Assembly (NCBI GenBank): GCA_021732415.1
Contig: JAKFVC010000182.1
Location: 1-39,041 of the forward strand
DNA length: 39,041 nt
From: Planctomycetaceae bacterium
GTDB taxonomy: Bacteria > Planctomycetota > Planctomycetia > Planctomycetales > Planctomycetaceae
Direction: 5' to 3'
The notes beneath the pieces were generated by a model. That model was not told the DNA's origin. It ran no database searches and worked only from the letters and a program-made list of their open reading frames with translations. The translations under genes and the position numbers were made by a program. Below, piece after piece: positions 3,442-16,000 of the stretch; the first letter of the stretch is position 1; each line of letters starts with the position of its first letter.

Positions 3442-4473
3442 ATGCAGTGGCCAGGTGAGACATTACTTGGGCGAATGTGGGAAACTGTCACCGAAAAAGG
3501 TATCGGTGGGTTATTCAAGCCATGGCAATTGAAGCGCGAAGGCCGAGCCGCGATTGATGTCCGCCGCCATGAGCTCCTTGCGATGGCACAAGCTGAGAAA
3601 GAGGCTGAGGCGATCAAGTTGGGCCTCAAAGAATACGGTACAGATGGACGGATTCGTGCTTTGGCGTCCGACGCTACCGACCCGCCGGAGCCCATCCAAC
3701 CCTTGCTCGTCGAGCGACACGACTACAATCCATTCGAATCCCTGAAACTTGAAGTTAGCGAGCGTATGTTCGCTGAATCAGTCCGCTGCGAAGCAAATGT
3801 TTCAAATGCGCTTTTATCTGCAGCATTTGAATTAGAAACCGACTCAAGCCCCCCACCGATTGAGAAGCCTAACGACGACTGGTTGTATCGATGGAGAGAC
3901 GCCGCAAGTGAAGTTTCCGCTGAAGAAATTCAGGACTTGTGGGGACGGCTGCTTGTTGGCGAAATCAAGGCGCCTGGCACTTACTCGCTTCGCACCCTCG
4001 ACTTCCTTCGAAATATCTCTAAGGACGAGGCGGGTGTTATCGCTTCCCTTGCTCCGTTTGTCATCGCTGACAGGTTATTCCGAGCAAGTACCGAGCTTCT
4101 GGAAGAGGCCGGAATTGGGTTTGAGCAACTAATGCAGTTGCAAGACCTGTCTATTTTGAATGCTGTCGAATCCCTTAACGTGAACGTAACACTCGGCTCC
4201 ATTGCAAAAGACAGTTTCAATAGCGTCCTGGTGTCGCGAGGACGTGCGCTAGTGTTGACACACGTCGCACCTGGGAAGACACTCGATCTTGGAATTTATG
4301 CGATCTCTCGTATCGGCCTTGAGATCCTTTCACTTGTGTCGTCGAAACCACATGAAGGCAACTTGCGACTGATAGGATTGATGATCAAGGAGCAAGGTTT
4401 CGACGTAGAACTTGTGGATTGCCTGGATATTTCCGGTGACATAATTAAGTACAAACGTGGCGAAAAGCTCTAA
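3442..4473 (+). CDS. DUF2806 family protein
   Basis: This 343-residue protein belongs to the DUF2806 family, whose biochemical function is unknown. The opening MQWPGETLLGRMWETVTEKG, then LFKPWQLKREGRA, matches how family members begin, so I place the start at 3442; a GGA lies a few bases upstream. In-frame upstream ATGs at 3367-3424 would add an untypical extension. A helical, charged region follows (AMAQAEKEAEAIKLG). The diagnostic core is at about 146-195: DWLYRWRDAASEVSAEEIQDLWGRLL, then GEIKAPGTYSLRTLDFLRNIS. No signal peptide or membrane span is seen, so it is probably cytoplasmic. Base composition is clearly lower in GC than the neighbours, suggesting recent acquisition. The next gene, about 210 bases downstream on the same strand, encodes a HEPN-like protein, so the pair may act together. 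Confidence 0.82.
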   Translation: MQWPGETLLGRMWETVTEKGIGGLFKPWQLKREGRAAIDVRRHELLAMAQAEKEAEAIKLGLKEYGTDGRIRALASDATDPPEPIQPLLVERHDYNPFESLKLEVSERMFAESVRCEANVSNALLSAAFELETDSSPPPIEKPNDDWLYRWRDAASEVSAEEIQDLWGRLLVGEIKAPGTYSLRTLDFLRNISKDEAGVIASLAPFVIADRLFRASTELLEEAGIGFEQLMQLQDLSILNAVESLNVNVTLGSIAKDSFNSVLVSRGRALVLTHVAPGKTLDLGIYAISRIGLEILSLVSSKPHEGNLRLIGLMIKEQGFDVELVDCLDISGDIIKYKRGEKL

Positions 4474-4515
4474 GTCTTGCTGGTCGGTTTCTGCGGCCCA
4501 GTAGGCTCAGTCAAG

Positions 4516-4541
4516 GTCAGCCACGTCAGGCGATGGCTGAC
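4516..4541. repeat. Intergenic hairpin, 8-bp stem
   Basis: GTCAGCCA (4516-4523) and TGGCTGAC (4534-4541) form a perfect stem with a 10-base loop between the DUF2806 and HEPN-like genes. No U-tract follows, so it may be a weak terminator, an mRNA processing site or chance. Confidence 0.4.
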
Positions 4542-4686
4542 GAGGGGTGACTTTCGACAGCGGACCGAAATTCTCACCAGAGGGCCGGATCTGCGGTCGT
4601 CCGACACGTGCACTCCATCATCGCCCACAGCGCGAAGCACAGCCCGATCTATCTGGCTAATTCAACAAAACAAGGTCCAAGTAATC

Positions 4687-5439
4687 ATGATCGTCCAAAA
4701 TGGGTACGCATACATTCAAATCGGGTTGGTACTAAGGCTCCTGCGTAACGTCGTGGCGACAAATACTAAGGCTTTTGTTGAAACTTCATTTGATACTCTT
4801 CTTGAAAAGTTGGAGGAGGGGAATTTTCAGGTCACTATTGCTGCCACAATAGGCGACAGGTTCAGTGAGATGCAGGACGCCGTCAAAGCGGTGGCGAAAG
4901 CGGACGATGCAATTGGTGAGAAGGTCGCGAATGCCGTGCGCGCAGAGGCTGCGCAGCTAGAAACGGTTATCTTTCCCGAGTCCTTGATCAAGAAGTTATA
5001 CGTGCTACCAAACCGTCGATTTAATTCCGACTATCTTTTGAATAGTCCTGGAGCTCTATTGGGGGCAGGCCTGTTTGGAAAGCTCGAACTGATCGCACAG
5101 CAAGACGTGGCATCTGCCGGCAGATGTCTCCTTTTCGGGGAAGCCACCGCTTCCGCATTTCATATCTTACGTGCGACTGAGTCGGTGCTGAAGAGCTACT
5201 ATTTCCATCACAGGAAGCAGAAGCGGCTACCCCGCCCAATGTGGGGGCCGATGGTGGATCAGCTCAAAGCGAAGACTCGCAACCGTCCGCCTAACACACT
5301 ACTAAGTGCACTAGACCTAATACGCACGGCCTATCGGAATCCGACGCAGCACCCCGAAGCGCAGTACGAAATCATTGGGGCGGAAGATCTTTTTGGAGTC
5401 TGTTTGGACGCTATTGGGAAAATGGCCGCCGAACTCTAG
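4687..5439 (+). CDS. HEPN-like C-terminal domain protein
   Basis: I place the start at the ATG at 4687, giving 250 residues, because the open frame upstream (4477-4686) reads as basic, low-quality sequence from the intergenic region; AAGG at 4672-4675 is a weak ribosome binding site. The C-terminal half is all-helical. It has a helix resembling HEPN-type domains (GRCLLFGEATASAFHILRAT) and ends with RNPTQHPEAQYE. This contains an R-x4-H motif (R217, H222) where HEPN ribonucleases carry their catalytic Arg and His. The N-terminal ~115 residues are unrecognised and include a possible helical dimerisation or sensor stretch (MQDAVKAVAKADDAIGEKVANAV). HEPN proteins commonly act as RNases in toxin-antitoxin, abortive infection or CRISPR-linked systems; that role here is inferred. 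The same motif also occurs in non-catalytic HEPN-like domains, so the activity is unproven. Confidence 0.62.
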   Translation: MIVQNGYAYIQIGLVLRLLRNVVATNTKAFVETSFDTLLEKLEEGNFQVTIAATIGDRFSEMQDAVKAVAKADDAIGEKVANAVRAEAAQLETVIFPESLIKKLYVLPNRRFNSDYLLNSPGALLGAGLFGKLELIAQQDVASAGRCLLFGEATASAFHILRATESVLKSYYFHHRKQKRLPRPMWGPMVDQLKAKTRNRPPNTLLSALDLIRTAYRNPTQHPEAQYEIIGAEDLFGVCLDAIGKMAAEL

Positions 5440-5668: not shown

Positions 5669-6481
5669 ATGAAGATTATTGAATTCCAAACCTCGGCCAT
5701 TGCCGAATTTCCGTTTCTCAATGCTGGGCGTGGCCCCGGTCAGTTCTATGAGGACCGGATTCCCGTGCACCGCGCGCGAGTGGACCGGCTGCCGGATGGC
5801 GTTGCGGCGATTGTGGCCACGGCTGACCTGCAGGGACGGGAACGGTTTCAAGAGTCGGTGGGTGGTTCGCTCCGGCTGCTCGGGGAAGTGCTGCCCCAGC
5901 GACTGGTGAGCGAAGTGCTGCCCTCGCTGGGAATTCGTGGGTCACAGCAGGTGGGGGTCTTTCTCGCCGGTGATTTCTACACCGTCCCGGCACTCGACCA
6001 GCGGGGTGGAACTGGTGATGTCACCAGCGTCTGGCAGGCGTTTGCAGAGTCTTTCACCTGGGGCGCGGGTGTTGCCGGCAATCACGATACGTTTGGCGAC
6101 CCACCCCAGCGTCGACCCAGGCTGCCGAGTTGGATGCATTATCTGGATGGGGACTCGGTCAATGTGGCTGGATTGCGGGTCGCCGGGCTGGGTGGGATTA
6201 TCGGTCGGGCGAACCGAATCAATCGCCGTAGCGAAGAGGATTACCTGGCAACGCTGAAGCGCCTGATCGAGGCTCGTCCCGATGTTCTGTTGATGCATGA
6301 TGGGCCCGACGGCAGCCAAACCGCTCAACGCGGATTGCCGCGCATTCGTGAGCTGTTGATCGAGTCGGGGATGGGCCTGGTCATTCGCGGTCACGCCCAT
6401 TGGGATCAGCCATTCGCCGAATTCCCGAGCGGCTTGCAGGTCCTGAATGTCGACGGCCGCGTGGTGGTGCTCACGACGTGA
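5669..6481 (+). CDS. Calcineurin-like metallophosphoesterase
   Basis: This 270-residue protein has the ordered metal-binding motifs of calcineurin-like phosphoesterases: TADLQG (D53), LAGDF (D102), GNHD (137-140), LLMHDGP (H210) and GHAHW (241-245). They coordinate a two-metal centre that hydrolyses phosphomono- or diesters; the substrate cannot be read from the sequence. Spacing and total length fit a single catalytic domain with no fused module, signal peptide or membrane span, so it is probably cytoplasmic. The first motif is TADLQG rather than the more usual D-x-H, so the first metal site may be atypical. I chose the ATG at 5669 (MKIIEFQ) because upstream in-frame sequence is unlike a protein; no clear Shine-Dalgarno is present. 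It stands alone, with the HEPN-like gene upstream and repeats downstream. Confidence 0.85.
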   Translation: MKIIEFQTSAIAEFPFLNAGRGPGQFYEDRIPVHRARVDRLPDGVAAIVATADLQGRERFQESVGGSLRLLGEVLPQRLVSEVLPSLGIRGSQQVGVFLAGDFYTVPALDQRGGTGDVTSVWQAFAESFTWGAGVAGNHDTFGDPPQRRPRLPSWMHYLDGDSVNVAGLRVAGLGGIIGRANRINRRSEEDYLATLKRLIEARPDVLLMHDGPDGSQTAQRGLPRIRELLIESGMGLVIRGHAHWDQPFAEFPSGLQVLNVDGRVVVLTT

Positions 6482-6910
6482 GATCGCTTTGCGATCCCCC
6501 TACCGGGGTTGGCATAGATCGCATTACGCGGTCCGGGCACGCGGGTTCGCTCATCTCTGCTGAGTTCGACGCCATTCGAGTGTTTCGAACTCGACTCGTT
6601 CCAAGTCGCTGGTGGCTTCAGATTGCGCCGGCAGTTCGAGGGCGCACAGGGGATTGAATTTCGCCCAAGGTGTTTGGTGGCGTTTGTTTGGGAGCACTTT
6701 GAGACAGTTCGCCGATTTGAAAATCCTGGTTTTCCTGACATGGGCTGATTCAGTGATTGGTAACGGAGTGGATATCGTTGCTGGTGGGAAGAAGCGCGCC
6801 TGGCGGCGAGAGAGTAGATCGGAATGGGGACATCCGAGGGCGCGAAGGTGTTGAAGAGTTCAAAGAAGTCAAAGAAGTCGAAGGAGTCACGCCGTGACAA
6901 TCTATATCCG

Positions 6911-6974
6911 GCTCCCGTGGCAGACGCTGCCAGCGTCTGTGGCCGCCGACGCTAGCAGCGTCGGCCACGGGGGC
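6911..6974. repeat. Palindromic GTGGC...GCCAC element, copy 1
   Basis: The element has CCCGTGG/CCACGGGGG outer arms and two inner hairpins built on GACGCTGCCAGCGTC and GACGCTAGCAGCGTC. The 52-bp core, 6917-6968, is the reverse complement of the core of copy 2 except for one base. A related element lies at 27428-27489. Confidence 0.85.
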
Positions 6975-6983
6975 TTTGGGACT

Positions 6984-7077
6984 TTGGGCGTTCGAAGGGG
7001 TCAAAGAAGTCGAAGAGTTCAAAGAAGTCGCGGCAGAAAAATGTCGACCCGGCTCGCCTGATTTCTGGTGGGTGAAG
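6984..7077. repeat. 94-bp direct repeat, copy 1
   Basis: This unit begins TTGGGCGTTCGAAGGGG, contains two TCAAAGAAG-like words and ends CTGGTGGGTGAAG. It matches 7206-7299 in direct orientation with a single substitution (AAAAATG versus AAAAGTG), indicating a recent duplication. Confidence 0.9.
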
Positions 7078-7140
7078 GGTTCAAAGAAGTCAAAGAAGTC
7101 AAAGAAGTCAAAGAAGTCACGCTGTGACAATCCAGATCCG

Positions 7141-7205
7141 GCTCCCGTGGCCGACGCTGCCAGCGTCGGCGGCCACAGACGCTGGCAGCGTCTGCCACGG
7201 GGGCC
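7141..7205. repeat. Palindromic GTGGC...GCCAC element, copy 2
   Basis: Same family as copy 1, but the 52-bp core (7147-7198) is in the opposite orientation although the flanking sequence (GACAATC...ATCCGGCTCCC) is in direct orientation. Confidence 0.85.
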
Positions 7206-7299
7206 TTGGGCGTTCGAAGGGGTCAAAGAAGTCGAAGAGTTCAAAGAAGTCGCGGCAGAAAAGTGTCGACCCGGCTCGCCTGATTTCTGGTGGGTGAAG
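7206..7299. repeat. 94-bp direct repeat, copy 2
   Basis: Direct repeat of 6984-7077 with one base changed. It ends about 155 bases before the sigma factor start, so the promoter of that gene must lie in or just after this copy. Confidence 0.9.
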
Positions 7300-7454
7300 A
7301 ATTCAAAGATGCCGGACTGGATCGCAGGCGGGGAACGTGGCCGGTCTCTTCTGCTGGACGTCTGCTGTTGACTGCGAGGTGCAACCCTTCTGTCAGTCTG
7401 GGGTTGCTGGGATGCACGTTGTCGCTAGTTGCATCGTTTGATACACTAAAGGGA

Positions 7455-8018
7455 ATGCCCTCCGACATTTCCATACTCCTCTGCGCAATAAAACAGGGCG
7501 ACAGTCGCGCCGCTGATCAGTTGTTGCCAATGGTTTATGACGAGTTGCGCGAGCTGGCTCGGGCGAAGTTGGCCCAGGAGTCAGCCGGGCAGACATTGCA
7601 GGCGACCGATCTGGTCCATGAGGCCTACCTCCGGTTGGTCGATTCGCCGGTTGCTCAAGAATGGCACAGCCGCAAGTACTTCTTCGCGGCAGCGGCGGAA
7701 GCCATGCGGAGGATTCTGGTTGATAATGCCCGTCGCAAGCAGGCTCTCAAACGGGGCGGAAACCTGGGGCGTTTGCAGGCGTCGCTGGATGATCTGCCCG
7801 AAGTGGGTTCCGCTCCCAATCTGCTGGAAATTGACGAGGCGTTGACTCGATTGGCGGTGCAGGATGCCCAGGCTGCGGAACTCGTGAAACTGCGGTTTTT
7901 TACGGGTCTGCCGTTGTCCGAAGTTGCCGAGATGCTGGACATGTCCGAGCGGTCAGCTGCCCGCTTGTGGGCGTACGCGCGGTCGTTTTTAGTGATCGAG
8001 CTGTCACCCGACGCCTAG
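7455..8018 (+). CDS. ECF sigma factor, kinase-associated type
   Basis: This 187-residue ECF sigma factor resembles the TIGR02999-type subfamily common in planctomycetes. Region 2 includes QLLPMVYDELRELARAKL, the conserved LQATDLVHEAYLRLVD and FFAAAAEAMRRILVDNARR. Region 4 follows at about 130-180 (LRFFTGLPLSEVAEMLDMSERSAARLWAYAR), which should bind the -35 element. The start at 7455 (MPSDISILL) fits family length; the frame is open upstream to 7290 but that part is repeat DNA. Such factors often sit beside a Ser/Thr kinase and lack a classical anti-sigma factor, and here a kinase gene begins about 245 bases downstream on the same strand. Control by that kinase is inferred from context. Confidence 0.9.
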   Translation: MPSDISILLCAIKQGDSRAADQLLPMVYDELRELARAKLAQESAGQTLQATDLVHEAYLRLVDSPVAQEWHSRKYFFAAAAEAMRRILVDNARRKQALKRGGNLGRLQASLDDLPEVGSAPNLLEIDEALTRLAVQDAQAAELVKLRFFTGLPLSEVAEMLDMSERSAARLWAYARSFLVIELSPDA

Positions 8019-8262
8019 ACACCGAGTCTCTGGCTGGCAAAACACGCTATTTATCCGGGGCTGCTGGCATATTCCGCCCGGGTCTGTAGAGTCGAGTGGC
8101 ATCCCGCGAGGTCCACCGAGCCTCGTCGTCGAATTCGCAGGGACTAAGACAGTTCAGCAGGAATCGGATGTCACCTGACTTCCGATGGGTGGAAATTCTC
8201 GGTGAACGACTCGTGATTGGCGTCGATCAGAATCCTGTTACGCGAACTCCTGGCGACCGACC

Positions 8263-11200
8263 ATGCACGAACGAGACCTCTTCATTTCCGCTCTGGAATT
8301 CCAGGACCCGGCGCAGCGTCGGGCTCATCTGGATGCGGAGTGCGGTGGTGACCTGGTGCTGCGAGCACGGATGGAACAACTCCTGAGCTGTCCGCCCGAT
8401 GCCGGGGAGTTTTTAGACCGGCCCGCGGCGGAATTGTGCTCCAATATCGTCCCGGAGTTGCTCAGTGAACGCAACGAATCGGCGCACGCTGAGGGCGTTC
8501 TTCCAGTCGTGCCCCGCCAATCCAACGAGTCCGATCAGACTGCCCTCGTGAATGCTGTGGTTTCGGCAGAAGGGGTACCGAGGGCGGGGGATGCAGGCCT
8601 TTTACCGAATGGATTGGGCGAGCAGGCGTCGGCCGCGGGGACACTGTTCGGCCGGTATCAAGTGGAGCGGGTGCTGGGAACTGGGGGGATGGGAGTTGTC
8701 TATCTCGTTAAAGACCTGCGGTTGGGACGCCGAGTGGCTTTGAAAATTCCCCGGTTCGATGTGGATGGCCGATTTCGATTGGCTGACCGCTTTCGTCGAG
8801 AAGCGCGGATCATGGCTTCGGTGCAGCATCGCAATCTCTGCCCGATTTTCGATGTGGATGAGCAGGACGGTACGCACTATTTGACGATGGCGTTCATCGA
8901 CGGCACGCCTCTCTCACAAGCCATTAAGGAGGGGCAGTCCTTTACCGCGCGGCAAACGGCCGAATTGATTCGCAAGTTTGCCCTGGCACTCGATGCCGCG
9001 CACCGCGCAGGGGTCGTGCATCGCGATTTGAAGCCGGCTAACGTGATGCTCGACCACAGCGGCGAACCGATCCTGATGGACTTCGGACTCGCCTGGCTGG
9101 CGCACGAGACCGACGCCCGAGTGACTCAGCCGGGTGCGATCATCGGGACGCCGGCCTATATGGCTCCCGAGCAGGCTGATGGTGGATACGAACGAATTGG
9201 TGCTCCCTCCGACATTTACAGCCTGGGAGCCATCTTCTACGAACTGCTCACGGGCCGTCCCATTCGTGCCGGCAATATGTCGCGCGTGCTGTACGAGCTC
9301 ATGCATGACGATCCGGTTCGCCCCAGCAAAATTCGCAGTGACATCGATCCCCAGTTGGAAGAGATCTGTTGTCAGGCGATCTCACGCCGCCCCGAGGATC
9401 GGTTCGCTACGGCCGCGGATTTTGGAGAGGCACTCGCGAATTTTCTCGGCCGGAGCCAGTTTGATCAGCGATCCATTAAGAGTGAGGGCGAGGGGGCCGC
9501 AGGGCAGGCCACCGCATCGCCGCGTGTCGCGGAAAACGGCTTGACGGAAGCCCTGTCGCAACAAGGGCGAGTTGTGATCGGCGAGAGCACCGCAGTGCTG
9601 TCGCATCACCAAGCCACAATGAAGTCTCGGCAACTTCAGGTGAGTCGATGGAGCAAGTTGCGCATTGTGCTGGCGTGCTTGTTGGTGATCGGATTGCTGG
9701 GAGTCGTCTGGGCAACGCTGGGGCCGAAAAGGGAAGTCGAAACGCCGAAACCACTTGCCACCGTCGCCGTAAATCTCGCGCGGCCTGCCAACCAACCGAC
9801 GATCCATCCGCCCATTCAACCTCCCGGCCAACCAACCAAGCCGGCAAGACCTGTCGATTTGGGCAAGCCGTTCGCGGTCATCCACGATGGGCAGGAGCGG
9901 CGAACGTTCAAGACTCTGGCGGGAGCCATGGATGAGAGGCAGCCCGGCGAGATTGTCGAGATTCGTTCGAACGATCTCTTACGCATTCGCTGGGTCGAGC
10001 CGATCACCAAGCCGCTGGCGATTCGCGCTGGGGCGGGATATCGGCCCCGGCTCTCGTTTGTAGGACAAGGGGAAGTCATCCGGATCGAAGGCGAGTTTTC
10101 GGTCGAAGGCTGTGATCTCGACTTCCGCGCATTCCGAATTCCCTCCCCCAGTCGAACGGCGACCTGGCGCTTTCATCGCTGTCGCTTGTGGGGAGACTTG
10201 CCTGGATCTGTCCACAAGGTGCGCGTTAGTGACAGTGTTTACATCTCGATTTACGGCGTCGATGTGCCGCCCGATGGGATCTCATCGGACTATGAGTTCG
10301 ACAACTGCCTGATTCGCATGAACAACATCATGATTCGTTACGGAGGTGGCAGTAGGCATCTGCTACGCCTGCGCAACTGCACCGTTTACGCAGTCGCAGG
10401 AGGATTTGCACGCCTCGCTCATTTGAGGGAAGAGGCGAAACTGACGGTGGAAGCGACCGGAAATGTATTTCATTGTCAGTCGCAAGCCACCGAGTTGATC
10501 GACCCGCAGTCGCTGACCCGCGTGACCTGGAGCGGATCCGGCAACTGTTTCTCCGGATCCTGGTATCTGATCAGGGAGGGGTCTGTTCTGAAGGAGAAGG
10601 GACTGCCGGCTTGGAACAAGCTCTGGAAAGAGCCCGAGCGGGATTCTCGCGAAGTGGATTTTCTCGCGTTCGAATGGGGCCGGATTCAGCGTCTGCCCAA
10701 CCCCGAGCGATTTGTCGCAGTGCGAGCGGCGACGGAAAAGATGATTGCCGAGCACAAGCTGGCAGAGGTTGGACCAGATTGGAATCTCGTTGGACCAGGG
10801 GCCGCGTATGTGCGCGCGTTGGCCGCCGAGGGACGTGCCGTACCAGAAGCGGAGCTGCGGCCAGAACGGCTTGAAGATGGTCCCATCGTATTGCTCCGAG
10901 CCGGGAAAGAAGTTCGCGGCTACCTGACGCTCAAGGCCGCCGCGGACGCCGCTCAAGACAAAGACATCATCGAACTCCGGACGGACGGACTGCTCAAAGA
11001 CTGCCGTTGGACCGGCCAGGCCCGATTGCTCACGATCCGCGCCGGCGCCGGTTACTCACCGACGATCGACCCCGACTTGGAAAGCATTGGAACGGATCGT
11101 CTGATCTTGGAAGGACTGACGATCCGGCATGTCTTGCACGCCAGTGGTGGTTGGCTTGCGAACGATTTTGGGGATGCTAAGAAGCCCCTGTTTCCGTCCC

Positions 11201-13007: not shown

Positions 13008-16000
13008 ATGAAGCGCTTCAGCTTGAGTCAATGGTTCGAATGTTACCACATGCGGCCGAAAGTCACTCGACGCGGTCGCGCTGCGCGGCGACAGTTTGTG
13101 GAGGCGTTGGAAGACCGCCTGCTGCTGGCTGCGGCTCCCACGAGCACCCTCGACATGAACCTGGATCTGCCAGGAGACCAAACCAGCCGGCAAGTTCTTG
13201 TCGGCGAAGACACGATGTTTTCGGTCACCTTCGACAACACCGGGAACGCATTGGGCTACGGTCCGTTCGTCGATTTGATCGTCGACTACAAGGGAGCCGA
13301 CGGAGTCCCGCAGTTCCCCTCGAGCTATTTTTCTCCGGGCAGTCCTCCCTCGTTTGTGACTCCCTTCACTGGAAGTCCCGATGGATTGGGTGTCGATACG
13401 AGTGGAGCGGGGATCAATCAGTTGATTTCAGCGACGACGTACGGCCAGTCGCTGGAGCTGGAATTCGTGCAGTTTGACGCAACCGGCCACGCGACCCATC
13501 CGTTCGCCAAGGACAATGTCGGTAATCCGGTGATCGTGACGGGCCCGGCGGGTGACGTGCTCGTCGCGGCGCGGCTCCCGTTTGGATCATTCGCTGACGA
13601 CCAGCCCCCTGCCCCCGTGCTGTTCACCGCGCACGTCTCGTCGCTGGCGGACGTCGGGGTAAATCTCGCGGTGCAAGCTCGCAGCGGATTCGAATTCGGG
13701 ACGACTCCGGAGGACGATGCCGCAGCGGGTGACCTGTCGTTGCTCGAGGCCGGAGGGTTCCATCAAGGCTCGGTGACACCCGAAGTGTTTATCATTTCGA
13801 AGATCAATCTCGCCCACGAAGGCGAAACGGCAACAGGCCCCAACTTCGCGCAGCAGTGGCAAATCACCGTCGATGTTGCTGCGGGCCAGACAGTCACTAA
13901 CGTCGACGTCAGCGACTCGCTGCCCGGCAACGTGGTCTTCGTCAATGGTTCCCTGGTGGCATCGCCCGCCGCGGTGCTGACTCTACCGGGGCCCACACCG
14001 AGCACCACCGCTGTGCTGAAGGCGAAGTTTGCGAGCCTGACCGGAGTTGCCGGACCTGATGCGAGCGTCACGTTCTCGTTCTACGTACCCGAACTGGATG
14101 CCAGCATCAATCCGGTACTCGACCCCACGACGGGCGCACCGTCGGCATCGATCAACACGGCAACGGCGACCGGAAACTGGGTTCCGACCGATACTCGCGA
14201 CCACGCCAACCTCCCTGGTTCCGGCCTGCCGATCGCGGTTGCGAGCGGACCGGCGACGAATTCCTTGGCCGACAAGTCCATCGCGATTCAGAAATCGGTG
14301 GCCATTGTGACTGATGTCGGGGCGGCCGGGCCGACTCCGCTCGACATCCTGGAGTACTCGCTGGCGTTCCAGATCTCAGATTACTTCGGTTTCGAGGACC
14401 TGGTCATTGACGACTTCTACAGCGACGGCCAATTACTGAACGGGACGCCAACGTTGGACATCACCACTAATGGCTCCACAACTGCAGTACCGCTGAACTT
14501 TGTGTTGAACACGAACTACACCAACACATTCACTCCCGACGGCAATCCGGTCACGCATGATAGCCGTCATCTGCACTTTGACGTTTCCGGGTTGATGAAT
14601 TCAAGCAGCCTCGGCACGGGCCAGTTGCTGGGCGGCTTGTTCACGCCCAGTACCAGCAATGACGGGCCGACGACAGGCCTCTTGCGATTCCGGACCCAGA
14701 TCCAGGAATCGTATCAGGAATTCCAGCAGGGGGTCACTCCGTCTCTCGACGAACATGACGAACTCTTCAACGCGGTGGTCATTACAGGCGAGTTGCTCGA
14801 TGCGAGTCGCAGCGTGGCCGGCGCGACGCAGTCCGATGACAGCAGCGTGCTGTTCCAGGTCCCGGTAGGAACGTTCACTAAAACGATCTATGCGATTAAC
14901 GGCAACGTGCTGAGTCCTTCAGTTCCGCCCGGGCTGCCGCCGCATGTGTCGCCGGGCGATACTGTGACCTACCGCCTGCAATATCGGTTGACGACCGGCG
15001 ATTTCGAGGATTTCCATCTCCGCGATTTTCTGCCCCACCCGAAGCTGTTGGCCGATGATGCCGACGCCGATGGCGTGATTGGGCCGAACTGGACCCTGGT
15101 GAGCGGACTGCCGCTGCCCGGCCAGTACAGCACCTCCGGAACCGTCCCCGCGCCAGTGACCGTAAGTGTGGACTCGACGAGTAACTCCCTTGAATGGGAT
15201 TTCGGCACCCGCGTCGATTTAAACAATGCTCCCGACACGATTGATATTCTCTTTACGGTGACCGCCACCAGTCTGCTCTTCGCCGACGGCCTGTTCTTGA
15301 CGAACGAAGGCGAGTCGACCCATCACGATACGCACCTGCATACGGTTGATGCGACGTCGCTCGTGCAGATCATTTCCTCCGAACCCAACTTGCTGATCAC
15401 CAAGGGTGTGGTGGCCACCGACAATGACAATCTGGACCATGGCGTGTTCGCACCCGCCTTGCCGAATGCGTCGTTCTCCGATCCCGGTTCTGCGGGATTC
15501 CGATATACGGGTGGCAGTATCACGTCGGCCAATCTGCCGTCGTTGATCAACAGCAATCTGAGTAATGTCGATGCCAGTGATCTGGTCACGTTCGCCATTG
15601 CCGTGGAAAACATCGGGTCAGATCCGCAAGGTGCGTTCGATGTGATGCTGCAGGACGTAATCCCTGCCGGGTTCCATATTCCTGCCGGCGGACTGAATCT
15701 GACCGTTACTGATGGAACCAGTGCCGTGCTGACTTGGACCGGCGCCTTGTTCGGTGCGGGTCTGGAGCTTACCGATCCGAATTCCACGACGGGTGCCTTG
15801 GACAATTTCAATCCTTTCATCGCCGGCAAGAACATCCTGTTCATCACCTACGACTTGGAAGCCAACAGCGCTCCGCAGTCGCCGCTGGGAATGAGCCCCG
15901 TCGAAGCGTGCGAGACGATCACCAACACTGCCACCCTGTTGGCGTATTCGAGCCGCGATGGCGGTGCCGCGACGCCTGGTCAGAATTACGTCTCTGATTT

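Follow-up and report, generated by a model that had tools for sequence, protein, structure and literature searches.

HEPN domains are characterized by two motifs, R-x4-6-H with a polar residue (N, D or H) after the arginine and Ex3[KR] (Anantharaman et al., 2013; PMC3710099). In Tha, a 301-residue protein of Staphylococcus aureus prophages, the C-terminal HEPN domain carries the first of these as R265NSIMH270, and the H270A substitution abolishes defence; the protein is described as a ribonuclease (RNase) that is activated by the minor tail proteins of infecting phage (PMC11087260). Four further validated HEPN-domain systems, including the one-protein CBS-HEPN, are reported with DefensePredictor (PMC13092281). 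Abi-alpha is encoded by a single gene of prophage 6 of Enterococcus faecalis V583, aborts infection with premature lysis and is stated to resemble PF10987 (PMC6356687), the Pfam family DUF2806. The gpA-gpQ interval of P2-like phages, the home of old and tin, is described as a hotspot of anti-phage genes (PMC9122126). Here, we compare these systems with two adjacent genes at positions 3442-5439 of a 39,041-nucleotide stretch of DNA from a Planctomycetaceae bacterium (contig JAKFVC010000182.1, positions 1-39,041 of the forward strand; the whole stretch is called the window below). Gene 1 encodes a DUF2806 protein and gene 2 a HEPN protein of an unnamed family. The original prediction treated the two as a candidate conflict module; with moderate confidence, we read the locus instead as an islet of two separate abortive-infection-type genes, in which gene 2 encodes a HEPN protein complete in itself and gene 1 is of the Abi-alpha kind and acts alone.

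Re-examination of the DNA confirmed both open reading frames (ORFs), the R-x4-H motif and the AT-richer segment at their coordinates. The features of the segment are as follows.

3442-4473, + strand: gene 1, DUF2806 protein, 343 residues (ATG at 3442, stop at 4473).
3763-4056, + strand: best PF10987 stretch of gene 1, residues 108-205 (Pfam match).
4474-4686, no strand: intergenic gap of 213 bp, in which no site resembling a promoter or terminator was found and RNA folding is unremarkable (z -0.93).
4687-5439, + strand: gene 2, HEPN protein of an unnamed family, 250 residues (ATG at 4687, stop at 5439).
4687-5001, + strand: N-terminal helical region of gene 2, residues 1-105, with modelled helices; a candidate sensor or autoinhibitory domain.
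5077-5436, + strand: C-terminal HEPN domain of gene 2, residues 131-250 (structure matches and Pfam matches of sister proteins).
5179-5193, + strand: E165-x3-K169, the second HEPN motif Ex3[KR] (family alignment).
5335-5352, + strand: R217-N-P-T-Q-H222, the HEPN R-x4-6-H motif with a polar N after the R; R, N, P and H are invariant.

The two genes are codirectional. An in-frame TTG at 4477 would extend gene 2 to 320 residues; the start at 4687 is favoured by the N-terminus of the aligned family.

Residues 217-222 of gene 2 read RNPTQH, with R217 and H222 exactly where the original prediction had placed them. A lone R-x4-H in a protein of 250 residues proves nothing, but this one is taken to be beyond chance because its motif is invariant across members that share 29-56% identity with gene 2. 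A family alignment of 17 rows (A5) shows R217, N218, P219, H222 and P223 without exception in the 16 rows that extend that far. E165 is kept throughout (17 of 17), and position 169 holds K or R in each of the 16 members that cover it; both HEPN motifs are thus present in the gene 2 family. The Pedobacter piece L021 and the fragments of the broken Aeromonas caviae gene are not part of this alignment, and three relatives (L107, L109 and L110) were found after it was made. When the members were scanned singly, Pfam HEPN (PF05168) was matched by 7/17 at E <= 0.01 (best 2.6e-5) and DUF4145 by 4/17 (best 1.8e-5), rising to 10/17 and 7/17, respectively, at E <= 5. For gene 2, Pfam returned only a weak DUF6965 match below its cut-off, NCBIfam gave no match at E <= 1 and PHROGs gave one family of unknown function (E 4.5e-10).

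The AlphaFold2 monomer model of gene 2 is helical, with a mean predicted local distance difference test score (pLDDT) of 90.5 and a predicted template-modelling score of 0.62. The Foldseek candidates were given a second look with VIA-align 2 (VIA), which yielded a table of 50 rows. The rows confined to the C-terminal half (approximately residues 106-250) are exactly seven HEPN-type entries: RnlA 6y2p (Z 10.4, r.m.s.d. of 3.7 Å for 139 aligned residues within 106-249, 11% identity), the archaeal HEPN homologue 1wol (Z 10.2, r.m.s.d. of 2.7 Å, 106 aligned), RnlA 4i8o (Z 10.0, r.m.s.d. of 3.8 Å, 129 aligned), 1ufb, which we take to be a HEPN protein (Z 9.9, r.m.s.d. of 3.0 Å, 113 aligned), and, lower, the HEPN domain protein 4nqf (Z 8.9), SO_3166-SO_3165 (5yep; Z 8.8) and Csm6 (8jbc; Z 7.9). 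The HEPN fold match is trusted because the motifs, the Pfam matches of sister proteins and the fold agree. Sequence and model therefore support the reading of gene 2 as a genuine HEPN protein with a canonical motif, and the all-helical C-terminal domain of the original prediction is borne out by the modelled helices and the seven HEPN-type rows.

Gene 2 is probably a sensor and a HEPN RNase in one protein. The HEPN domain (residues 131-250) would most likely dimerize and cut RNA by means of R217, H222 and E165, while the N-terminal helical domain (residues 1-105) would most likely hold it off until a phage component is met. Cleavage of cellular RNA would then stop growth before phage release, as described for staphylococcal Tha. 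Two distant viral relatives bear on the front part of the protein: the 328-residue ORF of L109 (5572-6558) and the 312-residue ORF of L110 (5446-6384) have a HEPN-like C-terminus, with the motifs RNPVTH and RNRFAH, respectively, behind a longer N-terminus. These two ORFs, read unaligned and with unsettled starts, hint at a replaceable front domain and exchangeable sensors.

Relatives of gene 2 are scattered across phyla. A pattern-limited scan of the genomes of 84,980 species found 13 loci in deltaproteobacterial, Flavobacterium, Vibrio, Pedobacter (two pieces), Verrucomicrobia, Paceibacterota, Dehalococcoidales and other records, and IMG/VR predicted viral contigs gave four relatives in a first search and seven in a second (three of them new). 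The closest relatives are 46-56% identical to gene 2 over the aligned length; a Pedobacter C-terminal piece is 74% identical. One relative (L015) lies directly after a phage repressor gene. A tblastn search of plasmids with gene 2 found a single record, from A. caviae, and the same search of phage records found no match for gene 2 and two weak matches for gene 1. In the A. caviae record (L002), the gene 2 relative (7788-8411 and 13593-13880) is split by an insert of approximately 5.2 kb with transposase-like ORFs, as judged by eye.

Gene 1 belongs to DUF2806, as originally predicted: it scores 84.3 bits against PF10987, for which the curated cut-off is 24.5. It is a long form of the family with an extra N-terminal part (N-terminus QWPGETLLGRMWETVTEKGIGGLFKPWQ) and scores 63.8 bits against TIGR03899 of NCBIfam, below the cut-off of 155.65. 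The closest relative (L046, from another genus of the same family) has the same N-terminus and 42% identity, a Paraburkholderia plasmid relative keeps this N-terminus at 34% identity, and 22 aligned IMG/VR proteins (alignment A7, 22 of the 40 viral DUF2806 proteins) are 25-38% identical to gene 1. In the genome of the closest relative, the DUF2806 gene stands tail to tail with a DUF5131 gene (7088-8929). Among DUF2806 members of two sets, the Pfam Abi_alpha model is matched at E <= 5 by 4/11 (best 6e-6) and 2/23 (best 9.6e-7). DUF2806 is thus distantly related to the single-gene Abi-alpha, so that it needs no HEPN partner, and gene 1 would be a prophage-type single-gene abortive-infection factor of the Abi-alpha kind that acts alone. 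Its AlphaFold2 model is fair (pLDDT 83.6, with residues 75-93 under 50). Foldseek gave no match for gene 1 at E <= 0.001, VIA gave only weak winged-helix-like matches over residues 181-301 (Z up to 4.2), and when PDB sequences were searched with alignment A6, and with the gene 2 family alignment A5, all matches had E 0.18 or worse. Structure 3H35, to which Abi-alpha is likened in PMC6356687, is not among the displayed structure rows for gene 1, an absence that carries little weight.

The surroundings of DUF2806 genes in phages are consistent with such a role. An alignment search found 40 viral contigs with DUF2806 relatives (duplicates are possible). Scans of the predicted viral contigs with single proteins (gene 1, gene 2) and with a two-row DUF2806 alignment gave no matches; the viral loci came from alignments A1, A6 and A5. 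With phmmer queries for P2-type neighbours taken from L054, L068 and L060, a gpQ-type portal gene was found adjoining DUF2806, or one small Ogr-like gene away, in 11/40 viral loci (L054, L056, L058, L061-L064, L068, L073, L076 and L078). In eight of these 11, gpA lies on the opposite side of DUF2806, in some with small ORFs between; in the other three (L056, L062 and L068) the contig ends on the side where gpA would be sought. DUF2806 thus stands between gpA and gpQ in 8/40 viral loci, which puts the family in the hotspot, while the window copy of gene 1 lies outside any recognized P2 prophage. In L058 gpA and a head-scaffold part are joined in a single ORF. A phage-type repressor adjoins DUF2806 in 5/40 viral loci, and PHROGs names a portal and a replication-nicking protein in L054, a replication-nicking protein in L063, a portal in L068 and repressors in L055 and L060. 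Both families occur singly on predicted phage contigs.

DUF2806 relatives are also found on 303 plasmid records, 301 of them typed as conjugative and mostly from Escherichia coli, Salmonella and Klebsiella, where the gene may be a plasmid-borne anti-phage gene. On an E. coli IncX4 plasmid record (L004), it lies at 5833-6684 between a MipZ-type gene and a replication gene. In counts that include the window's own genome and come from overlapping samples, DUF2806 occurs in 6/246 genomes of the phylum and 10/397 of the class, and gene 2 in 1/246 genomes of the phylum. Defence-type genes near DUF2806, picked by eye with no control for clustering, are a SIR2_2 gene (L031), an Mrr-type endonuclease (L003) and a type IIG enzyme (L034), the last of which adjoins a DUF2806 match that is below the cut-off. 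The first is in another genome of the same family (7472-9953), where the SIR2_2 gene follows DUF2806 by 148 bp and matches the PADLOC candidate PDC-S25. A Pfam search of ten chosen DUF2806 neighbours gave SMI1_KNR4, SIR2_2, DUF5131 and Mrr_cat matches and no HEPN match; other HEPN families were not searched for exhaustively there.

It is unlikely, in our estimation, that neither gene is defensive, gene 2 being a nucleotide-binding or regulatory protein of HEPN fold with no RNase activity and gene 1 a regulatory protein of winged-helix type. In some HEPN families the motif has been lost and the domain binds substrate instead (PMC3710099), and residues 181-301 of gene 1 do look weakly winged-helix-like at Z up to 4.2. 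The catalytic motif is nevertheless fully retained in the aligned members of the gene 2 family, which argues against loss of RNase activity, and the P2 hotspot position of DUF2806 in those eight viral loci argues against a non-defensive role.

The original prediction was of a two-gene conflict module in which DUF2806 would sense phage for the HEPN RNase or be its antitoxin, and it named a lack of conserved linkage beforehand among the outcomes that would refute this pairing. Every ORF of 60 residues or more at the loci up to L090 was searched with profiles for gene 2 and for DUF2806, and L107, L109 and L110 were additionally checked for DUF2806. None of 20 other gene 2 loci has an adjacent DUF2806 gene (L002, L013-L020, L021 with L022, which are two pieces in one metagenome-assembled genome, L023-L029, L107, L109 and L110), and none of 56 other DUF2806 loci has a gene 2 relative in its available flanks (L003-L005, L012, L030-L034, L043-L049 and L051-L090; the window and L002 are excluded, and the short L007-L011 and L035-L042 duplicate longer loci and are uncounted). 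Flanks of at least 3 kb on both sides are present in 14/21 gene 2 records and 37/56 DUF2806 loci; L033 and L034 are partial Pfam matches (that in L034 below the cut-off) that the custom DUF2806 profile missed. The check therefore ran against the pairing. The genes do adjoin each other, codirectionally and with a common AT-richer composition, HEPN proteins are common effectors of toxin-antitoxin and abortive-infection systems (PMC3710099), and the two families lie 3.5 kb apart in A. caviae; set against this are the 0/20 and 0/56 counts, the 213 bp gap and the closest inspected relatives of each gene, which are likewise unpaired. We regard such a module as improbable. The part of the original prediction that stands is that both genes look like conflict or defence genes; the two-gene module does not, nor does the role of DUF2806 as antitoxin or sensor, its Abi-alpha kin acting as a single gene. 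A type II toxin-antitoxin pair was likewise rejected on the same counts of conserved adjacency. The adjacency of gene 1 and gene 2 is best explained by joint acquisition or by the clustering of defence genes.

The composition of the segment is as originally described: its GC content is 51.9%, compared with 57.9% for the whole window, and on a scale of ~2 kb no other part of the window is as rich in AT. Among 741 sliding windows of the same length as the segment, 15 have as low or lower GC, and all 15 overlap it; at a scale of 500 bp there are further GC dips near 31 and 33 kb. The segment may be of horizontal origin. The flanking genes, named by eye, are a sigma factor, a kinase, a DUF1080/LamG-type gene upstream and a metallophosphoesterase downstream, and no P2 gene was recognized by eye within the window. 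An integron-cassette origin was considered and rejected, as RYYYAAC sites are not above chance frequency. A search of 81 genomes found relatives of the downstream metallophosphoesterase in six other genomes, of which one is fragmented and one is weak; a relative of the upstream gene was absent from the four stretches fetched in an empty-site test (one near a contig end), so that no empty site is definable. Low-complexity repeats on both strands (ORFs of the KKSKKSKK and FFDFFDFF types) occupy 6750-7371 of the window, adjoining the sigma-factor-like gene. That the two genes are non-functional leftovers of an old mobile element, as the AT-richer segment with no element recognizable by eye around it might suggest, is very improbable given that both frames are intact, of family length and with the motif residues kept.

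Several observations weigh against the preferred reading of two separate abortive-infection-type genes. For gene 1, there is no Abi_alpha match and the PF14337 cut-off is not reached; three Abi_alpha matches of sister proteins that were viewed singly score 14.9, 19.9 and 22.5 bits, below the Pfam cut-off of 29 bits; and no close fold was found (best Z 4.2). Gene 2 itself matches no Pfam HEPN model, and Foldseek gave it no PDB match at E <= 0.001. Its Z values of about 10 fall within the caution range of VIA for helical bundles, where a value under about 13 may reflect a common arrangement, and its N-terminal half gives generic helical rows up to Z 9.5 (G-protein-coupled receptor fusion proteins, cytochrome b562 etc.). 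PADLOC at E <= 1 matched neither gene. As to the separateness of the genes, the A. caviae record has a DUF2806-type gene (phmmer E 2.2e-10) 3.5 kb from the gene 2 relative, beyond a chemotaxis-receptor-like ORF, and the adjacency of two rare genes in a genome of 9.87 Mb suggests joint acquisition, so that the two may not be strictly independent. As to mobility, inspection of the larger ORFs in the window by eye revealed no integrase, and relatives did not show the gene order that flanks the segment, so that a recent insertion is not evident.

Beyond the locus, we tentatively suggest that the gene 2 family comprises unnamed, prophage-carried single-gene RNases found across phyla, with a conserved HEPN domain and interchangeable sensors, that long DUF2806 proteins are an unrecognized abortive-infection family of the P2 hotspot, and that the window has gathered one of each. 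A speculative toxin-antitoxin pair is thereby replaced by two testable single-gene candidates. DUF2806 gains a concrete hypothesis, that it is a gene like Abi-alpha in the antiviral hotspot of P2, and attention is drawn to a HEPN family whose member gene 2 had no significant model in Pfam, NCBIfam or PADLOC. In the literature searched, DUF2806 and PF10987 are rarely mentioned (the papers that mention DUF2806 are, by their titles, studies of mcr-carrying E. coli) and TIGR03899 is not mentioned; the titles and opening lines of abstracts on solo HEPN prophage systems contain nothing evidently on the gene 2 family.

Compared with the described systems, gene 1 is over the cut-off for PF10987 but under that for TIGR03899, as a long form of the family. 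It shares with the hotspot genes of P2 (old, tin and others) the gpA-gpQ location of 8/40 viral relatives, although the window has no recognized P2 gene. With Abi-alpha (PF14337, formerly DUF4393) it has in common the distant sequence relation of DUF2806 and the prophage habit; the two differ in length (272 residues in Abi-alpha and 343 in gene 1), and gene 1 misses the Abi_alpha model. For gene 2, RnlA (RNase LS) is the top structural match (Z 10.4), but the two are only 11% identical, and RnlA has the antitoxin RnlB whereas no conserved partner of gene 2 was seen. Comparison of gene 2 with Tha-1, the one Tha sequence used, gave no significant homology (E 0.24 by BLASTP; a probability of 0.2% by hhalign, with the motifs in register). 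The likeness to Tha is one of architecture: both are prophage-type single proteins of 250-300 residues with an N-terminal region followed by a C-terminal HEPN domain, and both carry RN-x3-H (RNSIMH in Tha, RNPTQH in gene 2). On this analogy we propose that gene 2 may work like Tha, with no claim that it is a Tha.

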